Origin: Synechococcus sp. PCC 7335
GTDB lineage: Bacteria > Cyanobacteriota > Cyanobacteriia > Phormidesmidales > Phormidesmidaceae
Length of the DNA stretch: 60,931 bases
Direction of reading: 5' to 3'
Assembly (NCBI RefSeq): GCF_000155595.1
Contig: NZ_DS989904.1
Location: 133,446-194,376 of the forward strand
Under the pieces are notes generated by a model that saw nothing but the letters and a program-made list of their open reading frames with translations, did no database searches and was not told the DNA's origin. The first letter of the stretch is position 1, and the number at the start of each line of letters is the position of its first letter. Below are positions 47,970 to 56,657 of this stretch, in pieces. Position numbers and translations under genes: made by a program.

Positions 47970-49217
47970 TCAGCTTAGATCGATCAGGTTAGACTTGTCG
48001 CGCTTCAACAAAGTACTGGCGGTTACGATGCCGATAAGAGACAGCAGTGCCATTAAATAAAATACATAGGTGTAGGAGCCTAGCCAGTCTCGGATCCTCC
48101 CAGTAACCAGGGTTCCACTCAAAGCTCCAATACCGTAAGCGGTGAACACAATGCCATAATTTTGGGCGTAGTGATTAGGATCAAAAAATCGCAGTGTCGT
48201 TGTCGGCGCGATCGCCAGCCACCCCCCTAAGCAAAACCAGAATAAACAAAAGGCCAGCAAGTAGGTTGTTACTTGTCCAGGCTGGGCACTGACCATCAGT
48301 ATGCAAGCAACCAGAATGAGCGCATAGCTAGCGATCGCCACATAGTGCGGCTCAAAGCGATCGCTCAGCCAGCCAAAAAGCGGCCTAGCAACACCATTGA
48401 ACACTGCAAATAAAGAGACGCTGCTAGCTGCTAAGCCAGGATTAATGTTGATCATTTCTTCGCCAACTGGGCTCGAAATGCCAATAGCGCTAAGGCCAAT
48501 TAGAGTGCCTAGCGCATAGCAAATCCACAATCCATAAAACGAACGACTCGTCAGTAAGTGTTTGGGATAGATACGGTCCTGGGTTGCTAGCGGGGCTAAC
48601 GCTGAGGCTTGGCTAGGATGCCAGTCCTTGGGGGGGAACCTGAGGGTGGTTGCGATCGCCGGAATCAGCAGGCCAAACGCCACTCCCAAAACCCGTAAGG
48701 CAATCCTGAGGCTGTAGGCACTCATCAAACTACTGGCAATCGGCGCACTAATTAAGGGGGAGAGTCCAAATCCTACGATAGTAATACCAACCGCCAATCC
48801 TTTTTTATCCGGGAACCACTGCGCCACAACCGCCATCGGAACGCCATAGGCAATACCAACGCCGGTGCCTGCGATGACTCCGTAGGTCAGTGTCATTGCC
48901 GTAATGTCCGAGGCAAAGCTAGAAAGAACATAACCTAGCCCTACCGCGAGCCCGCCGATTGTGGTGACCATCTGTGGTCCCATTCTAGGAATAAGAAATC
49001 CTGAAATCGGCATCAGGGCGGCATAAAAAACCAGTGCGATAGTGTAGGGCAATAGACTTTCGGTCGCACCAATGTTAAATTCTGATTCCAGAGGCTTACG
49101 AAAAACGCTCCAAGCATAAACGCTGCCTAGACATAGCAATACGCTCATACCCAGTAAAACCAGCAGCCATCTACCTCGCTCTGCTGACAATCCTAGAATC
49201 TTCACTTCTAAGGACAT
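47970..49217 (-). CDS. OFA-type MFS transporter (oxalate/formate-like)
   Basis: 415 residues, 12 membrane segments. The start has GRWLLVLLGMSVLLCLGSVY and AWSVFRKPL typical of the oxalate:formate antiporter family; the loop 2-3 motif is GFLIPRMGPQ and a second-half block is FGWLSDRFEP. OFA members exchange small carboxylates such as oxalate/formate or import lactate; the substrate is not predictable here. It is convergent with the K+ channel gene, 187 bp away, and has no obvious partner. Confidence 0.87.
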   Translation of the reverse strand: MSLEVKILGLSAERGRWLLVLLGMSVLLCLGSVYAWSVFRKPLESEFNIGATESLLPYTIALVFYAALMPISGFLIPRMGPQMVTTIGGLAVGLGYVLSSFASDITAMTLTYGVIAGTGVGIAYGVPMAVVAQWFPDKKGLAVGITIVGFGLSPLISAPIASSLMSAYSLRIALRVLGVAFGLLIPAIATTLRFPPKDWHPSQASALAPLATQDRIYPKHLLTSRSFYGLWICYALGTLIGLSAIGISSPVGEEMININPGLAASSVSLFAVFNGVARPLFGWLSDRFEPHYVAIASYALILVACILMVSAQPGQVTTYLLAFCLFWFCLGGWLAIAPTTTLRFFDPNHYAQNYGIVFTAYGIGALSGTLVTGRIRDWLGSYTYVFYLMALLSLIGIVTASTLLKRDKSNLIDLS

Positions 49218-49312
49218 AGTGACTCGTCGCTACAAGAAAAAGATCATCAAGCAAAACTGTATCAATCAAACTATAGAACAAACTTACAATTACTCATTGT
49301 TTGTCTATTTGT

Positions 49313-49618
49313 CTAATTGTTTATCCGCTCAGCTGCCACTACTTCAGCAATCCGGCTAGGAAACTCTGATAGATCTGCGTCCTCTCCTTTAGGCATAGGA
49401 GAGACGAAAGTGTAGCAAGGGTCGCACTGACCCGTATCAAACACCTGAAGTACCCACTTGTCGGGCAGTCCGGCCACACCAATTTCAACAACTGTCCAGC
49501 TACTACCGGTCTCTCTCGCCGAGATGACCAAGAAGAACGACTGATCTTCTACTGAAATTTCCAAATCATCCATGAGAAAAGTCATGGCTAGCTCTTCAGC
49601 TTCTGTAATAGTCACCAT
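49313..49618 (-). CDS. Conserved hypothetical protein
   Basis: 101 residues from an ATG at 49618. The central part, SWTVVEIGVAGLPDKWVLQV and FDTGQCDPCYTFVSPMP, reads as a conserved globular domain; I recall similar short cyanobacterial proteins without function. Two cysteines in C-D-P-C are a possible metal or redox pair. It lies alone upstream of the cnfR-1 region on the opposite strand. Confidence 0.68.
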   Translation of the reverse strand: MVTITEAEELAMTFLMDDLEISVEDQSFFLVISARETGSSWTVVEIGVAGLPDKWVLQVFDTGQCDPCYTFVSPMPKGEDADLSEFPSRIAEVVAAERINN

Positions 49619-49951
49619 TACCTTTTTTCCCTCTTAATGGCTGTTAGCACTTTATTATTTAAGACACCGTACAGAAGTTATCTTCCCGAGTATACCTCTG
49701 ATGAATATCAATTCGAGAATCTCTGTCTGCCTCTACGCATAGCCTCTGTCTACGCATAAATATCTCATATTAACGATGAATTGTTAAATGTGTGGCCAAG
49801 TCAAACGGTTTGTCAGGGAACGTGAAAAGAAATAGTAAAGAAAACATTAAACCGTATCCAATGTCATAGAACGCTTCGAGGCTCGGTTGTTATACCTGTA
49901 GCGGTTAGAACAAAGTTTTAGAGTTTTATAGAGGGGTTCGATTCTCGTAGG
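49619..49951. other. Upstream region of cnfR-1
   Basis: 333 bp between divergent genes. It contains the shared cnfR element at 49835-49897. Just before the cnfR-1 start, GGGGTTCGATTCTCGTAGGG looks like the 3' end of a tRNA (T-loop like), but its stem is mismatched and there is no matching 5' half. Confidence 0.4.
49835..49897 (+). promoter_or_regulatory. Shared cnfR upstream element, copy 1
   Basis: 63 bp from GTAAAGAAAACATTAAACCG through CATAGAAC to TTGTTATACCT. It matches the element upstream of the second cnfR gene at 31 of the first 38 bases and all 11 of the last 11, with a variable spacer between. The end of the conserved part, TTGTTATACCT, looks like a -10 region. It lies about 60 bp upstream of the cnfR-1 ATG. 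Confidence 0.65.
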
Positions 49952-49957
49952 GTGCCA

Positions 49958-51712
49958 ATGGCTTACACCATCAAGGACGGTTGTCACGACTGCGATCGCT
50001 GCTGGTCTGAGTGTCTTAAAGGGGCGATTAAGCCTTCGGAGCCACAAGCAGAATATCAGCAACCAGGTTATTGGATCGACCCAACACTTTGCGATGCCTG
50101 CCCAGATGTAGAGATTCCTTACTGTGTGCAAGTTTGCGACTCAGACACCTCTTTGAAGCCTTTGCCCTCTAGGAAGGGACGCTGTAAAAGTACGCTGCTG
50201 CCGCCTGCTATACCCGGTATTTTTCTCAATGGCAAAACAACACCTTTTGCTTCTTGCATGGTGATTTGGGAGGCTTGCACAGTATTCTCTAATCGGCAGT
50301 TACTCGCTTGGCATACAGATGCTAGCGGCAGGCTCTGCTACCACCGATCGGTCAATCGAGGGCGTGGAGAAATGCGATTTCGGCTGGCGGTTGATCCTGA
50401 AATCGCTCATCTTGAAAGGGGCAATGCTGATAGGGTCAATACCGATACAGTCAGCGATGGAACAGCTGATACTGCAGTAGACGCTGATACTGCTGATACT
50501 ACTGTTGCTGAAGTGCCTTTGCCAATGTCCGCAGATCTTGGTAGAGAGGCGATCGCTCGCTTTGATATTCGCGCCACCTGCATCCATCTCATCTTTGCGG
50601 CCTATGCAGCCACGCTCAATTGTCCTTGGGAAGAATCTTTTGAACTCAACGATCAACATATCGAAAAGTACCTAGGGCTTGATAAACGCAAAGACTTAAC
50701 TAAGCTGGAGAAACTTACTTTAATTAAAGAGCTGGTCTACCAGTCCTGTCGGCTGTTAGTTTCTTTAGACTGGCCTCAGCAGGGAAAGGTACGGCCCTTC
50801 ACGCTCACCGAGCAACCTGTTTGGCACTTACGCCACACGCAATACTACTTTGAAAAAGATGCTCAAGGCTGCCAACATTTGATTGGTTTGAGTTTTACGA
50901 TTAGAGCTGGCGGTTGGGCCCAGCGCTTTCTCAACAGCAGAGACTATCGCAACCAAACGGCTTTCTACCAGTATGGCACCTTGCCCCGGGCCTTGATTGC
51001 AGAAGTCATGAGTAGCTGGCAACAACATGAAGGCGCTGTTCGACTGTTACTATGGTTGTTGTTTAAGCTGCGTTTGGGAGGGGATCATCGACTTACGGTG
51101 CGTACTTTACTACGAGTAGCCTACGGCGAGCATCGGTTGCTAGAAGCGACAACTGTACGGGGGGCGCACAAGCGTTTGCTCAAAACCTTCGAGAACGATC
51201 TTCAAAGACTTTATTGTCACGGATTAGAGCCCATCTTTGATCCGGAAACCTATCCAATCGAGATTCAGCCGCTGTGGGCTAAGGCCGCAAGAATTCCTGA
51301 TGATGTGGATGAAGCGCTAGACTTTTGGGCCGATGAGGCTAATCGCGTTCTGACGGACAACGCGCCTAAAGACAAATGGCAGCGACTTTTGAACGCCCGT
51401 ATTTTAGGATTTGAGCTTTCAGATGAGTGGCAACAATCTGCTAGACGGCCTGTGTCCAAACGTCGCCGTCGCCCACCATCCAAGCACTATTATCAGTCTC
51501 GTTCTTCTGTTTCTAATCAGGGTGCAGGTTCTAGCCAGTCTCTATCTGGATTGGCTATAAAGGCAGCACGCGAGCAACAAAAGATTACTCAGCGGGCGCT
51601 AGCTAGTAGTCTAGGAAAAAGTCAGAGCTGGATTCGCGATGTTGAAAAGGGAAGATTTAGCATTAGCTTTGAAGATCAGGTAAGACTGCGTGAGGCGTTA
51701 GGAATTCAGTAG
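49958..51712 (+). CDS. cnfR: CnfR/PatB-type nif transcription activator, copy 1
   Basis: 584 residues from the ATG at 49958; this aligns with the paralog's start (MNYTIK versus MAYTIK) and leaves out an in-frame GTG two codons earlier. N-terminal bacterial-type ferredoxin: C9, C12, C15, C19 and C45, C48, C56, C60 for two [4Fe-4S] clusters. A long central domain and a C-terminal HTH (REQQKITQRALASSLGKSQS) follow. CnfR activates nif genes under micro-oxic conditions. Here residues about 150-195 carry an Asp/Thr/Ala-rich insertion missing from copy 2. Its stop overlaps selO's end by 7 bp. Confidence 0.92.
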   Translation: MAYTIKDGCHDCDRCWSECLKGAIKPSEPQAEYQQPGYWIDPTLCDACPDVEIPYCVQVCDSDTSLKPLPSRKGRCKSTLLPPAIPGIFLNGKTTPFASCMVIWEACTVFSNRQLLAWHTDASGRLCYHRSVNRGRGEMRFRLAVDPEIAHLERGNADRVNTDTVSDGTADTAVDADTADTTVAEVPLPMSADLGREAIARFDIRATCIHLIFAAYAATLNCPWEESFELNDQHIEKYLGLDKRKDLTKLEKLTLIKELVYQSCRLLVSLDWPQQGKVRPFTLTEQPVWHLRHTQYYFEKDAQGCQHLIGLSFTIRAGGWAQRFLNSRDYRNQTAFYQYGTLPRALIAEVMSSWQQHEGAVRLLLWLLFKLRLGGDHRLTVRTLLRVAYGEHRLLEATTVRGAHKRLLKTFENDLQRLYCHGLEPIFDPETYPIEIQPLWAKAARIPDDVDEALDFWADEANRVLTDNAPKDKWQRLLNARILGFELSDEWQQSARRPVSKRRRRPPSKHYYQSRSSVSNQGAGSSQSLSGLAIKAAREQQKITQRALASSLGKSQSWIRDVEKGRFSISFEDQVRLREALGIQ

Positions 51713-53364
51713 TCGCCAGACAATGCTTGATTGAAGTACTGCCAGTTGTCATCTTCTTCGATCGCCTGCCAGATATATGCGATCGCGCTTCGAGAGATTC
51801 TCTGGCGGGGATTGTATTGTTTTAGGCGGTGGGCGATCGCCACTATCTCATCCTCTGATTGTTGCTTTAATAGATGATGATAGAAGTCTTTCCAAGGCTT
51901 TAGCGCACCTACTCGATCGCCAATCTTGAGATCAGTAAACCCTGAGTTCTTGAGCTCTGTATCGGCAGCATGATGCTTGGAATACTTTGTAGGGTGATTG
52001 GTAGCATCGTCGGTCAACCTCAGACTAGCTGAGCCGAAATCAGCACCGCCTAAAAAGTTCAAGTCGGTAAAAATATTCGCTGAATCTTCTCGCCATCGAA
52101 CCGAAAACTGTTGTTGTAGGGCCTGAAAGAAATGGTGATAATTCACTTGACTTGCAAACAAAAATTGCAAAGTAAGATCGATTAGAGTTAGTGCATCTCT
52201 ATTCGACAGATTTTCAAACCCTAGCTTGCGCAGCATTCCTTGATGATAGGCATGTTCGTAAACTGTTGAAAACGAGGTCAGCGCGCTTTCCATGTCTTTT
52301 TTTGATATAGCCGATGCTAGGGGAACTTGCAATTTCTCTAGATTCCAACGACAAACTGTAGGCTGATTGCGATAGCTATAGCGACCTAGCCGATCAAAAG
52401 ACGCTGCTGTGAAATGAGGGCTATAGGCATCAATAAAAGCGTACGGGCCGTAATCAAACCCTTCACCAACAATGGACATATTATCGGTATTAAGAACGCC
52501 GTGACAAAATCCCGCCGCCATCCATCCGGCCACCAAATAAGCAGTTCGCTGCACTAGTTCTATATAGAATCGAATGTCTTGATCTGGAGTACGCCATAAA
52601 TGCTCGTAATGATGAGAGATTACATAGTCGAGCAACCGCCGGATTAAATCGGGGCGATCAAAATACTCTAGTCGCTCGAAGGTACCAAACCGGATATGTG
52701 AGCGACTAAGACGAACCATGACAGCTGAGCGAGTAGGGGATGGCTCGTCGGTTCGGATCAGTTCTTCACCTGTCTCTATCAGGCTGAGAACGCGTGAGGT
52801 AGGGATACCGAGTCTATGCAAAGCTTCGGCAGCAAGTACTTCTTTAATTCCACCTAATAGAGACAGCCGACCGTCGCGGCCGTGAGAGTGAGGGGTTTGC
52901 CCCGACCCCTTTGTTCCTAAATCAAAAAGCTGCCCATTGGCTGTGCGCACTTGCCCGTAGAGAAAGCCGCGTCCATCGCCTAGATAGGGGTTGTATTGGC
53001 CAAACTGATAGCCATGGTAGCGCAGGGCAAGTCCTAATTTCTGCGTATTTATTTCTGGTGTATTAACTCTTGGCGAGCGAGTCTTTGGGAGATAGGTTAG
53101 CTGTTGATGCGGCTTCTGTTGCGCTGGCTTCTGTAGTTGAGTCTGCTGGCCATGGTAAGCGTGAAACTTACCAAAGGCTTCAACAAAGTGTTGATCGGTG
53201 ACTAACTGAGGGGTTAAACCTAGCAAAGGAAGCAGACGACTGTTGCGAAACCGGAGCTGCGCTTTGGGAAAAGCCGCAGGTTGAACAATATCGTAGAAAT
53301 CCTCTCCTAACGACGCCAGTGCAGTTTCGTAGTGCAATCTAAAGAAGGGATTAGGGGCAGACAT
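51706..53364 (-). CDS. selO: SelO (YdiU) protein adenylyltransferase
   Basis: 552 residues. SelO is a pseudokinase that transfers AMP onto protein substrates and is linked to redox stress in E. coli. Hallmarks: LALRYHGYQFGQYNPYLGDG, LFDLGTKGSGQTPHSHGRDG, VMVRLSRSHIRFGTFE and GVLNTDNMSIVGEGFDYGPY with the metal-binding residues. It is 43 bp downstream of the thiol dioxygenase-like gene and cotranscribed with it, between two cnfR copies. Unlike many SelO proteins it does not end in Cys-x-x-U/C; it ends SGDY. Confidence 0.93.
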   Translation of the reverse strand: MSAPNPFFRLHYETALASLGEDFYDIVQPAAFPKAQLRFRNSRLLPLLGLTPQLVTDQHFVEAFGKFHAYHGQQTQLQKPAQQKPHQQLTYLPKTRSPRVNTPEINTQKLGLALRYHGYQFGQYNPYLGDGRGFLYGQVRTANGQLFDLGTKGSGQTPHSHGRDGRLSLLGGIKEVLAAEALHRLGIPTSRVLSLIETGEELIRTDEPSPTRSAVMVRLSRSHIRFGTFERLEYFDRPDLIRRLLDYVISHHYEHLWRTPDQDIRFYIELVQRTAYLVAGWMAAGFCHGVLNTDNMSIVGEGFDYGPYAFIDAYSPHFTAASFDRLGRYSYRNQPTVCRWNLEKLQVPLASAISKKDMESALTSFSTVYEHAYHQGMLRKLGFENLSNRDALTLIDLTLQFLFASQVNYHHFFQALQQQFSVRWREDSANIFTDLNFLGGADFGSASLRLTDDATNHPTKYSKHHAADTELKNSGFTDLKIGDRVGALKPWKDFYHHLLKQQSEDEIVAIAHRLKQYNPRQRISRSAIAYIWQAIEEDDNWQYFNQALSGDY

Positions 53365-53407
53365 AGATCTCCTGTTAGCCTAAGGAGGTATTATTAGTCG
53401 CTTTTGT

Positions 53408-54022
53408 CTAGTAATGTTTGGCTTGATGCGTGATCGCATCAAATTTAAACCGCTGCTTGCCCATAGTTTCTCCATACAGGTTAAAGGTCACTAGGGGATC
53501 TTTTCCAATCGCTTGTATGCGGTGGATTGCCTCTGGGAAGAAGCTGATTATCTCTCCATAACCTAACGTTTTTTCAGCCACACAAATAATCTTGTCAGGA
53601 AAGCTGGGCTCAGGCGATCGGCGCCAGAAAGTATGCTTTTCCTGACCTTGCAAAATTGCAACAACCCCCCAAGTTCCATGCGTGTGAATCGGAGAACTAG
53701 CACCCGGCATAAGTGCTTCGACTTGAATCGTTAAAGGATAGCCCGTTTCGTCGTAGAGATTCAAAAGCGCAGTTGGAGCCGTAGACGAAAGACTAGGCCG
53801 CCGAGTTCTGATCCAATAGGAATTGATGACGAGCTTGCGAACTAATCGTCGCAGCACTGGTAAACAATCACATTGATGAGTCGTTCTCGCCTGCTGTAGT
53901 GCGTTTTCTATTTCTGTCAGAAACCGATGAAAATGATATGGAGATTCTAACAAACTCCAATCTAGGGTTGTAGGGCACGGCTGACAGTGCCCATCTTCTG
54001 TAACTGACCAATCTTTATTCAC
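53408..54022 (-). CDS. Cysteine dioxygenase-like cupin protein
   Basis: 204 residues with a GTG start. The thiol-dioxygenase cupin: first motif S-S-P-I-H113-T-H115-G-T-W-G-V-V-A-I-L-Q-G and H167 in FFPEAIHRIQ form the three-His iron site. The crosslinking Cys found in mammalian enzymes is replaced by Gly, as in many bacterial members. The substrate could be cysteine, 3-mercaptopropionate or another thiol. The first 60 residues include C-Q-P-C and C-D-C motifs. It leads the selO operon. Confidence 0.85.
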   Translation of the reverse strand: MNKDWSVTEDGHCQPCPTTLDWSLLESPYHFHRFLTEIENALQQARTTHQCDCLPVLRRLVRKLVINSYWIRTRRPSLSSTAPTALLNLYDETGYPLTIQVEALMPGASSPIHTHGTWGVVAILQGQEKHTFWRRSPEPSFPDKIICVAEKTLGYGEIISFFPEAIHRIQAIGKDPLVTFNLYGETMGKQRFKFDAITHQAKHY

Positions 54023-54286
54023 AGTTTTTTTGAATGGATTATCTTTAAAATTCTAGAATTCTCACTCTCAACTGCTAAATCCTAACAATTAGAATTTCTT
54101 TCGACTATTTGACTATATTAATCTTTGCTTCTGCCTTTGTTGTTGATGCAGTGAAGCGATAGGAAAGTAATCGTATAATAAGCCCTTCAACCTAATTCAT
54201 ACTTTATCAAAGCGCTCTGACTTCGCAAAATCAAAGAGATAGAAACTTTATATAAGAATCTCTTTGGTAGCTATTAAAAATGAATT

Positions 54287-54348
54287 GTAAAGACAACATA
54301 AAACTGTATCATTTGACATAGAACAGACTATATTGCATTGTTATACCT
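54287..54348 (+). promoter_or_regulatory. Shared cnfR upstream element, copy 2
   Basis: 62 bp: GTAAAGACAACATAAAACTG, then GTATC, TTGACATAGAAC and TTGTTATACCT. It corresponds to copy 1 at 49835-49897. Here it lies about 710 bp upstream of the cnfR-2 ATG, so if it is a promoter, the cnfR-2 transcript has an unusually long leader or another RNA starts here. Confidence 0.6.
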
Positions 54349-54886
54349 AATACAGATGTAATCAAAGAAACAAATCTATTTAAGCTACTTTCTGACTACG
54401 GTTTGAGTTGACTACGGGTTAGTTTTATTGCTCATTAATTTAGCTCTTTAAGGCAGAGTAATTTGACGAGGCAAAACGCCAAGTCAACTATCACGAGCTG
54501 CTTGATTCTATTCGTTTATCTCTTTTGTCTGAATGCTAGGACTAAGACACTCTATCTTCAGAGCGAGAGAGGTATCAAGAAAGATGCGGTTGTCTCTAAA
54601 TATACCTCTATACAGGTCTCTGGCAATAAGCTAGGACTGTTGTTAGTACGTTTCTAGTGAACTCGTTTATCGCCATTCTCAATGCGAAGCCTCTCATTCA
54701 TCATAGTTTGCATAATCATCTAACAATTTAGCTTCGGTTTATTAGATGTCAAATTAACGGTTGTTTGTTTAGTTACGTTATCAAGTGCAGCTAACGGAAG
54801 CTCGAATGTAAGTAGACATTGAGAACTAAATCAAGCCCTACAATCTCGCTCAGCCAGTGGGAAACTTCGGCTATCAGAATTTTGTA

Positions 54887-54934
54887 TTGAACAGTACTTC
54901 ATTGACTAAGTTGAACAGTACTTCATTGACTAAA
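54887..54934. repeat. 24-nt tandem repeat upstream of cnfR-2
   Basis: TTGAACAGTACTTCATTGAC followed by TAAG occurs at 54887-54910 and again at 54911-54934 (last base differs). It ends 121 bp before the cnfR-2 start codon, a distance compatible with a duplicated regulator site. Confidence 0.85.
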
Positions 54935-55055
54935 TAGTTCCAATAAATAGCACTCACAAATAGCCTCATCCAAGCCACCCTTATCTGAGTAGTAATCTCT
55001 CTATCTACCCTATCAGCTGCAGTCTACCTAACTCCTTAACAGACCCGATTGCGTT

Positions 55056-56657
55056 ATGAACTACACGATTAAAGAAAACTGTATTGCTTGCGATGTTTGT
55101 CAGCCGCTATGTCCGCAAGATGCAATCAAACCGAATAGCGAAAGCGACGGCTACTGGATTGATCCTACGCTGTGCGATGGCTGCCCTGATTTGGAGATAC
55201 CTCTTTGTGTTTCAGCTTGTGATACCGGGGCATTAAAGCCTCTACCACCTAAAAAAGGACGGTGCAAAAGTAGCTTACTACCCGTCGCTATTCCCAGTAT
55301 TTTTCTCAACCGCAAAACGTCACCTTTTGCCTCTTGCTTAGTGATGTGGGAGACCTGTAATATCCTCGCCCAGCGGCAGGCACTGCCTTGGACACGAGAT
55401 GATGATGACCGAATCTGTTATCGTCGGCCAGTAAATCGCAATCGGGGAGAAATGAGATTTCGACTGGCGGCAGATGCTGAGACGAATTCTCCTAAGCCAA
55501 TGAGTATGGGCGCTGGGGAAGAGGCGATCGCAAACTTCGACATTCGTGCGACCTGCATTCACCTAATCTTTGCGGCCTATGTTATGACGATTGATTGTCC
55601 TTGGCAAAATGCTTTCGTACTAAACGATCAACATATTGCAAACTATCTAGGGCTCGATAAGCGCAAGGACCTCACTAAACTCGACAAACTTACCCTAATC
55701 AAGAATCTAGTGCATCAATCCTGTCAGGTTCTAGTCACTCTCAACTGGCCTCAGCAGGGCAGAGTCGGCGCTTTTCGCTTAGAGGAACACTTCGTCTGGC
55801 AATTGCTTGATACCCAATATCATTTTGAAAAGGATAGTAAGGGTCATCGGCATCTAATCGGACTGAGCTTTACTATAAAATCAGGACTATGGGCTAAACA
55901 CTTCTTGAACAAGCAGAAATATCGATCTCAAACCGCCTTTTACCAATATGGGACTCTGCCTCAATCATTACTCAGAGAAGTCATGGGCCGCTGGCAACAA
56001 CATCAAGGTGCCATCCGCATACTGTTATGGAGCTTATTCAAGCTAAGACTAGGCGGAGATCAGCGCGTGAAGGTTCGTACCCTAATGCGAGTTGCCTATG
56101 GAGAAGAACAATTACATCAAGCGGCTACCGTACGCGGTGCTCACAAGCGACTATTAAGAGCTTTCGAGAGCGACCTAGAAGCCATCTGTCAGTATGGGCT
56201 AAAGCCGCTGTTTGATCCTAAAACCTATCCACTTGATATTCAACCACTTTGGGTTAGAGTTGCTAGCATCCCTGACGATGTTGATGAGGAAGTCAACTTT
56301 TGGGCTGATGATGCTAATCAAGCCTTTGGCCTGACGGATAGTGCGCCCAGAGATAAATGGCAGCGCTTACTCAACGCCCGGCTGTTGGGCTTTGAGATTT
56401 CCGAGGAATGGCAGGAAAATATTCGACGACGCAAACCTAAAAAACGCCGTAAACCTTCCAAATCATGGACCGTCACTCAGACCGAAAAGCTCTCTGGCAG
56501 TGATATCAACTTGGCTCGCCAGCGGCAAAAGCTAAGTCAGCGATCGCTCGCTGAGCGTCTCGGCAAGAGCCAAAGTTGGGTACGTGATATTGAAAATGGA
56601 CGGTTCAAGGTTAGCCGGGACGACCAAGCACTGCTACGTAAAGAGCTAGATCTTTGA
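55056..56657 (+). CDS. cnfR: CnfR/PatB-type nif transcription activator, copy 2
   Basis: 533 residues. Same architecture as copy 1: cysteines C9, C12, C15, C19 and C40, C43, C51, C55 for two [4Fe-4S] clusters (CIACDVCQPLCPQDAIKP), a conserved central domain beginning GRCKSSLLPVAIP, and a C-terminal HTH (RQRQKLSQRSLAERLGKSQS). Unlike copy 1 it has the standard C-P after the fourth Cys and no Asp/Thr-rich insertion, so it is the more canonical copy. It is the likely master activator of nif genes at low oxygen. The close similarity of the two copies indicates a duplication. Confidence 0.92.
   Translation: MNYTIKENCIACDVCQPLCPQDAIKPNSESDGYWIDPTLCDGCPDLEIPLCVSACDTGALKPLPPKKGRCKSSLLPVAIPSIFLNRKTSPFASCLVMWETCNILAQRQALPWTRDDDDRICYRRPVNRNRGEMRFRLAADAETNSPKPMSMGAGEEAIANFDIRATCIHLIFAAYVMTIDCPWQNAFVLNDQHIANYLGLDKRKDLTKLDKLTLIKNLVHQSCQVLVTLNWPQQGRVGAFRLEEHFVWQLLDTQYHFEKDSKGHRHLIGLSFTIKSGLWAKHFLNKQKYRSQTAFYQYGTLPQSLLREVMGRWQQHQGAIRILLWSLFKLRLGGDQRVKVRTLMRVAYGEEQLHQAATVRGAHKRLLRAFESDLEAICQYGLKPLFDPKTYPLDIQPLWVRVASIPDDVDEEVNFWADDANQAFGLTDSAPRDKWQRLLNARLLGFEISEEWQENIRRRKPKKRRKPSKSWTVTQTEKLSGSDINLARQRQKLSQRSLAERLGKSQSWVRDIENGRFKVSRDDQALLRKELDL

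Follow-up and report, generated by a model that had tools for sequence, protein, structure and literature searches.

A conserved candidate promoter-operator element upstream of the tandem cnfR genes of Synechococcus sp. PCC 7335 and of many orthologs

CnfR, also named PatB, is the master activator of the cyanobacterial nif genes, and the control of cnfR transcription is poorly described in the literature surveyed. The closest described promoters are those of nifB, which have an extended -10 box and no -35 box (PMC8510180), and those of the nitrogen regulator NtcA, for which a class II layout is given in a chromatin immunoprecipitation (ChIP) study of NtcA (PMC3898017). Expression of cnfR2 in Anabaena variabilis is reported to require NtcA (PMC8510180), and patB/cnfR is reported to rise after nitrogen step-down (PMC3141674). 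The parts of the literature covered by our survey (including PMC8510180, PMC4284476, PMC5943405, PMC3898017, PMC7699953, PMC7377430, PMC3610870 and PMC3141674) hold no description of a cnfR operator or of the element reported here; the primary CnfR papers lie outside that survey, so the element may be partly in print. The window analyzed is a stretch of 60,931 nucleotides of Synechococcus sp. PCC 7335 (contig NZ_DS989904.1, positions 133,446 to 194,376), and it carries two tandem genes, cnfR-a (49958–51712, + strand) and cnfR-b (55056–56657, + strand), each preceded by a copy of the element. From sequence comparison, the element is best explained as a promoter-operator that belongs to cnfR itself and has been conserved in both paralogs from the time of the duplication.

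The products of cnfR-a and cnfR-b are CnfR/PatB-type regulators, a name based on domain make-up and the literature, that are 64% identical and have eight N-terminal cysteines and a C-terminal helix-turn-helix (HTH) in common. The cnfR-a product (584 amino acids) has all eight aligned cysteines and an XRE-type HTH (HTH_3), with no Fer4 match at 1e-3; the cnfR-b product (533 amino acids) matches Fer4 and HTH_31. The initial annotation placed the two copies of the element at 49835–49897 (63 bp) and 54287–54348 (62 bp), and these places, the agreement at 31 of the 38 positions of the first block and at all 11 of TTGTTATACCT, and the difference of one base in spacer length were all reproduced. The distances to the start codons, given there as about 60 and 710 bp, are 60 bp for copy 1 (ATG at 49958) and 707 bp for copy 2 (ATG at 55056). 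When the two intergenic regions are aligned locally the score is 29; 2000 dinucleotide shuffles give a mean of 12.1 and at most 20. A 23-base pattern built from the first block of both copies and allowing three mismatches at most has two matches in the window where 0.02 are expected, and the two copies are the only matches to a 32-base block pattern, again with at most three mismatches, in the 5.97-Mb genome, where the reversed 32-base control has none. The similarity of the two copies is thus far above chance.

All parts of both copies lie on the + strand. In copy 1 the predicted activator-binding block (49835–49872) consists of the A-rich arm AAAGAAA-N2-ATTAAA followed by the half-palindrome GTATC-N4-GTCAT. 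The half-palindrome holds an NtcA-like slot pair GTA-N8-CAT (49854–49867), NtcA needing GTA-N8-TAC, and the pair is separated by 23 bp from the TATACC of a predicted extended -10 box, TTG-T-TATACC-T (49887–49897), which predicts a transcription start at about 49902–49903. Alignment with copy 1 and with other sites places the predicted block of copy 2 at 54287–54324, its slot pair GTA-N8-CAT at 54306–54319 and its predicted extended -10 box, TTGTTATACCT, at 54338–54348, with 22 bp between slot and TATACC and a predicted start at about 54353–54354. A TTGACA in copy 2 was considered as a -35 box and rejected because its distance of 23 bp from the -10 box is too large.

The initial annotation had proposed beforehand that the element be looked for upstream of orthologous cnfR genes, and it was found there, at 19 of the 29 genes read first and at 15 loci outside this seed set. 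The 29 full-length genes were chosen among CnfR matches in 58 related genomes (G and L numbers are our handles for genomes and loci), the unread matches being G043 (partial), G049, G055 and CnfR-like proteins of about 38–40% identity. The core was present within five mismatches upstream of 20 genes; 19 formed the seed, and that of G007, with a score of 12.3, was set aside as weak. No element was found upstream of the other nine (G008x, G012y, G039, G033, G040, G041x, G041y, G048 and G038). A matrix built from the 19 seeds scored at least 30 in 25 of 77 loci from a separate protein search. Ten of these loci are seed contigs and 15 are not, the latter including Nodosilinea, Acaryochloris, Adonisia and Phormidium as well as one near-repeat of a seed site (L099). 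Cultured strains that carry this form include Leptolyngbya sp. PCC 7375 and PCC 6406 and Nodosilinea nodulosa PCC 7104. All 25 fall within the 31 loci of at least 55% CnfR identity, and the 46 more distant loci all stay below a matrix score of 14. The -10 box lies on the cnfR side of the element, and the block is 78–812 bp from the start codon. In one second cnfR gene without the element (G008x; L037) a decayed form with a score of 0.5 lies about 229 bp upstream, with TTGTTAT still visible.

These orthologs dispose of the suggestion that the element is mere residual duplication without function, to which we assign a practically negligible probability. The two copies do stand at paralogous loci, as that reading would have it, but the element also occurs in relatives with a single CnfR match (for example G021, G031, G034 and G057), and it is kept while the leaders diverge. 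In a tree of 38 proteins, which leaves out G004b, the a-type CnfR of the genus (four rows) and the b-type (three rows) are each monophyletic, with support of 100/99. The two types thus arose before these species diverged, and the element was retained in both. The cnfR-b gene of G004 (G004:C75:18821-20419, L035) contains two TAG codons and one TAA codon below an intact upstream element and is either a pseudogene or an assembly error.

An alignment of 33 sites, leaving out the weak L096, L120 and G007 and the repeat L099, was used to define the anatomy of the element. Thirteen of the 38 block columns are invariant, as are the TTG and the TA of the -10 box. The consensus comprises the A-rich arm, a half-palindrome GTATC-N4-GACAT, a spacing of 22 or 23 bp and the predicted extended -10 box TTGTTATnCCT. 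The left slot is GTA in 31 sites and GTG in two, with GTATC in 24; the right slot, eight bases on, is CAT in 29, TAT in three and GAT in one, so that nAT is found in all 33. The slot lies 22 bp from TATnCC in 29 sites and 23 bp in four. TG-n-TA is present throughout, and the closing T is displaced by one base downstream relative to TGnTATnnT (TATnCCT, 32/33). With the first T of TATnCC taken as -12, the half-palindrome is centered at -41.5 or -42.5 relative to the predicted start. Position and spacing are those of a class II activator site, yet the TAC of NtcA sites is missing and the motif of nifB promoters is rare upstream of cnfR; we therefore consider it likely that the element is a cnfR-specific, activator-dependent promoter of class II.

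The specificity of the element was examined with a profile (R1) built on the 33 sites from sequence alone and run with the stricter filters of Infernal, at which weak matches are lost. In the 58 genomes R1 gave 19 matches with E<1e-11, followed by that at the cnfR gene of G007 (0.002); the other matches listed had E values of at least 0.02. A cnfR gene lies downstream at the 15 strong-match loci fetched and at the G007 locus, and at none of four weak ones fetched; the four strong matches that were not fetched are further copies from G000, G001, G002 and G004 already seen at cnfR. In 291 genomes of the class there were 22 matches with E<1e-8, all adjoining cnfR on the same strand; seven of these loci are new, all with cnfR, and 15 were already known. 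The next match (L265, 5e-4) is without cnfR, and among still weaker matches that of G007 alone was examined. Nearly every strong match either served for training or equals a training site in sequence; the matches therefore show specificity rather than how widespread the element is. Within the genomes searched the element is specific to cnfR.

Taken together, these features suggest the following mechanism. A dimeric activator would bind the half-palindrome GTATC-N4-GACAT near -41.5, the class II position, in place of a -35 box, and the A-rich arm near -65 would provide a second contact, by the alpha subunit of RNA polymerase or by another protein. The polymerase would start about 7 bp downstream of the extended -10 box TTGTTATnCCT. 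The activator would most likely be an NtcA-type nitrogen-starvation regulator acting at a non-canonical NtcA site, such that cnfR would be switched on by nitrogen status and the Fe-S protein CnfR would then read oxygen.

As an alternative, an NtcA homodimer would bind the element directly, its left half-site (GTATC) being good and its right one (CAT) poor but tolerated; this is a serious possibility, though short of probable. The left slot fits, as counted above, and T and C at positions 4–5 are called "somewhat conserved" in the 40 top NtcA ChIP regions (PMC3898017). The 22-bp spacing is identical to that of glnA NtcA promoters: in upstream regions of glnA from relatives, GTAN8TAC with a TAN3T box is present in 19 of 23, and the distance to the -10 box is 22 bp in 19 of 19. 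These 23 regions come from 30 fetched loci and include none from the window's genus, whose GlnA-family matches fall below the curated cut-off. Besides the NtcA requirement of cnfR2 in A. variabilis, a decrease of patB/cnfR in Nostoc has been put down to inhibited NtcA (PMC7699953), and NtcA is reported to be active at the strongly deviating devB site (PMC3898017). Set against this, the right half is nAT in every site and never TAC, whereas GTN10AC shows high conservation among 508 putative NtcA sites (PMC3898017), and the homologous site of other families, described below, keeps neither NtcA half.

Several observations weigh against an NtcA-type promoter-operator, as well as against the wider reading of the element as a promoter-operator common to cnfR genes. 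GTAN8TAC occurs in none of the 33 element windows and in none of 17 sites of the diverged form, and at glnA the canonical sites are retained by 19 of the 23 relatives while the cnfR element deviates. The sixth -10 base is C in 31 of 33 sites, and the box departs from the strict TAN3T form. In other families the register holds G(C/T)T...TGAACA, which is even less NtcA-like. Some close cnfR genes score below 5 and are without the element (G008x, G012y, G033, G039 and L115), and at G007, L096 and L120 it is weak, with scores of 12–17. As to the literature, the ChIP study of NtcA makes no mention of patB in its main text (PMC3898017; this applies to the main text only), and the transcription-start table for Nodularia, as given in PMC3610870, has no PatB entry.

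Canonical NtcA boxes were also sought outside the element. Within 800 bp upstream of cnfR, GTAN8TAC is present in 38 of 106 regions, where mononucleotide shuffling predicts 23.9, the 106 regions including some genomes twice. It is accompanied by a fitting -10 box in nine regions, seven of them in heterocyst formers. Given this excess, and since the fitting sites are mostly in heterocyst formers, additional NtcA boxes may contribute to cnfR control in Nostocales.

The initial annotation regarded the element as a possible site of CnfR or another low-oxygen or nitrogen regulator. The layout agrees with the nitrogen-regulator part of this proposal, class II and NtcA-like, and binding of CnfR through a nifB-type site was not supported. 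TGAGTRC is present in all 23 nifB upstream regions of both lineages (mean 5.57, both strands), typically as three sites on the + strand with spacings of about 73 and 115 bp, and with two to four in each region (for example L069, L075 and L081). By their position and by the accounts in PMC8510180 and PMC4284476, rather than by the primary sources (Tsujimoto 2016; Pratte and Thiel), these are probably the CnfR sites CS1–CS3. Upstream of cnfR the motif is found in 10 of 29 regions, and the mean of 0.38 is about the chance level that we estimate for both strands of 1.5 kb. TGAGTR occurs in one of the 33 element windows, and the HTH stretch KSQSW[IV]RD of CnfR is kept between lineages while the element changes. 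Autoregulation of CnfR through the element is therefore unlikely, for all that autoregulation is frequent among regulators and that a weak look-alike, AAACTGT-N7-GATACAGA, is present upstream of nifB in the genus.

Scores of the element matrix on nifB upstream regions were low (21.0 in G002, the best, then 7.2 in G038, 7.0 in G004, 5.0 in G001, 4.3 in G048 and 2.2 in G000), and a second occurrence of the element at nifB was rejected. A conserved site like AAACTGT-N7-GATACAGA lies about 780–995 bp upstream of the nifB match (L069, L072, L075 and L079), and GATACAGA or a near form is present in 15 of 23 nifB upstream regions. The AAACTGT-N7-GATACAGA site, which is behind the nifB matrix scores in the genus, may be a separate distal nifB site, possibly of NtcA type.

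With the element matrix (clade-1 matrix) a diverged form was also noticed at cnfR genes of other families, namely TTAAGAAA-N2-ATTTAATnGCTC-N4-TGAACAAAA, aligned from 17 of the 20 sites listed (L127, L144 and L152 are left out). Heterocyst formers are among its named training members (Mastigocoleus, Nostoc, Komarekiella and Iningainema); the first rows of Nostoc type were chosen by loose matching (12 mismatches in 34) and do not by themselves match the clade-1 matrix. A profile of this form (R2) was run over 242 genomes and has matches with E<=0.1 in 87. A cnfR start lies downstream at 29 of 30 loci fetched, the exception being L216; ten of the 29 are in training genomes and 19 are not, one of the latter (L213) being already known. 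The same Nostoc-type sequence recurs in new genomes of family f32 (L209–L212, L214, L215 and L217). The best position of the clade-1 matrix in 1.4 kb coincides with the exact register of the diverged form in 11 of the 29 loci. Because the diverged family was first noticed through the same matrix, the fairer count is that outside the training genomes, 5 of 19, where by our own arithmetic about 0.01 would be expected. Four diverged-form genomes (G041, G106, G150 and G248) have tandem cnfR pairs in which each gene has its own element, and in the protein tree these pairs constitute another old pair of clades.

This divergence leads to the alternative of a dedicated regulator that reads the element and whose specificity changed between lineages along with the operator. 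Strong profile matches are confined to cnfR, the two families have arm, register and spacing in common but neither half-site, and conservation of the A-rich arm extends beyond the 14-bp core. On the other side, no candidate protein was found, none having been searched for, and the privacy of the profile is partly a length effect, as any single promoter has its own context. We regard such a regulator as possible, if somewhat doubtful. A broader proposal, speculative and rather doubtful at present, is a pan-cyanobacterial "cnfR box", an operator of about 38 bp found at cnfR only, in register from Phormidesmis-type to heterocyst-forming cyanobacteria and read by a regulator other than canonical NtcA or CnfR, with a half-site preference that shifted between lineages. 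If true, the cnfR box would supply the missing connection between nitrogen (or oxygen) status and the master activator of nitrogen fixation.

The distance of copy 2 from its gene had been taken as a sign of a long leader, a separate RNA or displacement. Displacement does not account for it, as the cnfR-b orthologs of three relatives have the element 465–812 bp upstream. The predicted leader of cnfR-b (54349–55055, + strand) is about 700 nt long, and neither its sequence nor its length is kept in orthologs. Alignment of four b-type leaders (roughly 410–760 nt) has no block common to all four, conservation ending at the -10 box, which speaks for a simple long leader rather than a separate RNA under conservation; a conserved small RNA or open reading frame (ORF) in the leader was rejected on the same grounds. 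The length of this leader and the presence of divergent genes upstream of both copies could nonetheless suggest an RNA leader element, a separate RNA or a promoter that serves the divergent neighbor gene. Such roles are very unlikely: an Rfam search of 49200–55200 has no match up to E 5, no consensus RNA structure was obtained from the 33-site alignment, and strong profile matches are on the cnfR strand. The neighboring ORFs are found in only part of 32 cnfR loci (101 amino acids, 10/32; 204 amino acids, 3/32), with the qualification that locus reach varies and some may be cut off. The 101-amino-acid ORF (49313–49618, - strand) has no Pfam match, and its 10 loci were found with tblastn. The cnfR-b leader also contains a 23-base unit in two perfect copies 24 bp apart (54887–54933).

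The window's genome has two tandem cnfR genes (49958–56657) alongside a single full nifB and a single nifD above the cut-off (G000:C1:249111-250418 and 243750-245159), unlike the reported case in which two cnfR genes are tied to two Mo-nitrogenase clusters (PMC8510180). CnfR-like proteins of about 38–40% identity over roughly residues 75–398 (G000:C3:121372-122343, and similar ones in other genomes) constitute a related family that occurs also in genomes without nifB above cut-off (G005, G010, G019 and G026). As both tandem paralogs keep the same input, a division of labor between them is unlikely to arise from the core element. An operator conserved between families pinpoints the bases for mutagenesis and offers a native cnfR promoter for nitrogen-fixation work, and the question of which protein activates cnfR becomes a testable one-fragment pull-down experiment.

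The promoters of cnfR1 and cnfR2 of A. variabilis, where cnfR2 needs NtcA (PMC8510180), are likewise those of cnfR paralogs; the heterocystous relatives examined carry the diverged GCTCA-N3-TGAACAAA, the A. variabilis sequences themselves being outside this comparison. With the CnfR-dependent nifB promoter (CS1–CS3 and an extended -10 box) the element shares a predicted extended -10 box, apparently without a -35 box, and membership of the same regulatory circuit, but it lacks enrichment of TGAGTRC, and its predicted operator adjoins the promoter whereas that of nifB lies 300–600 bp upstream of the start. With the canonical NtcA class II promoters (glnA, nirA and urtA) it shares a GTA left half, a dimer site near -41.5, 22 bp to the -10 box and the apparent lack of a -35 box. 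It differs from them in a right half that is nAT rather than TAC, in a -10 box TATnCCT with an upstream TG rather than TAN3T, in a long conserved A-rich arm and in strong profile matches at cnfR only.

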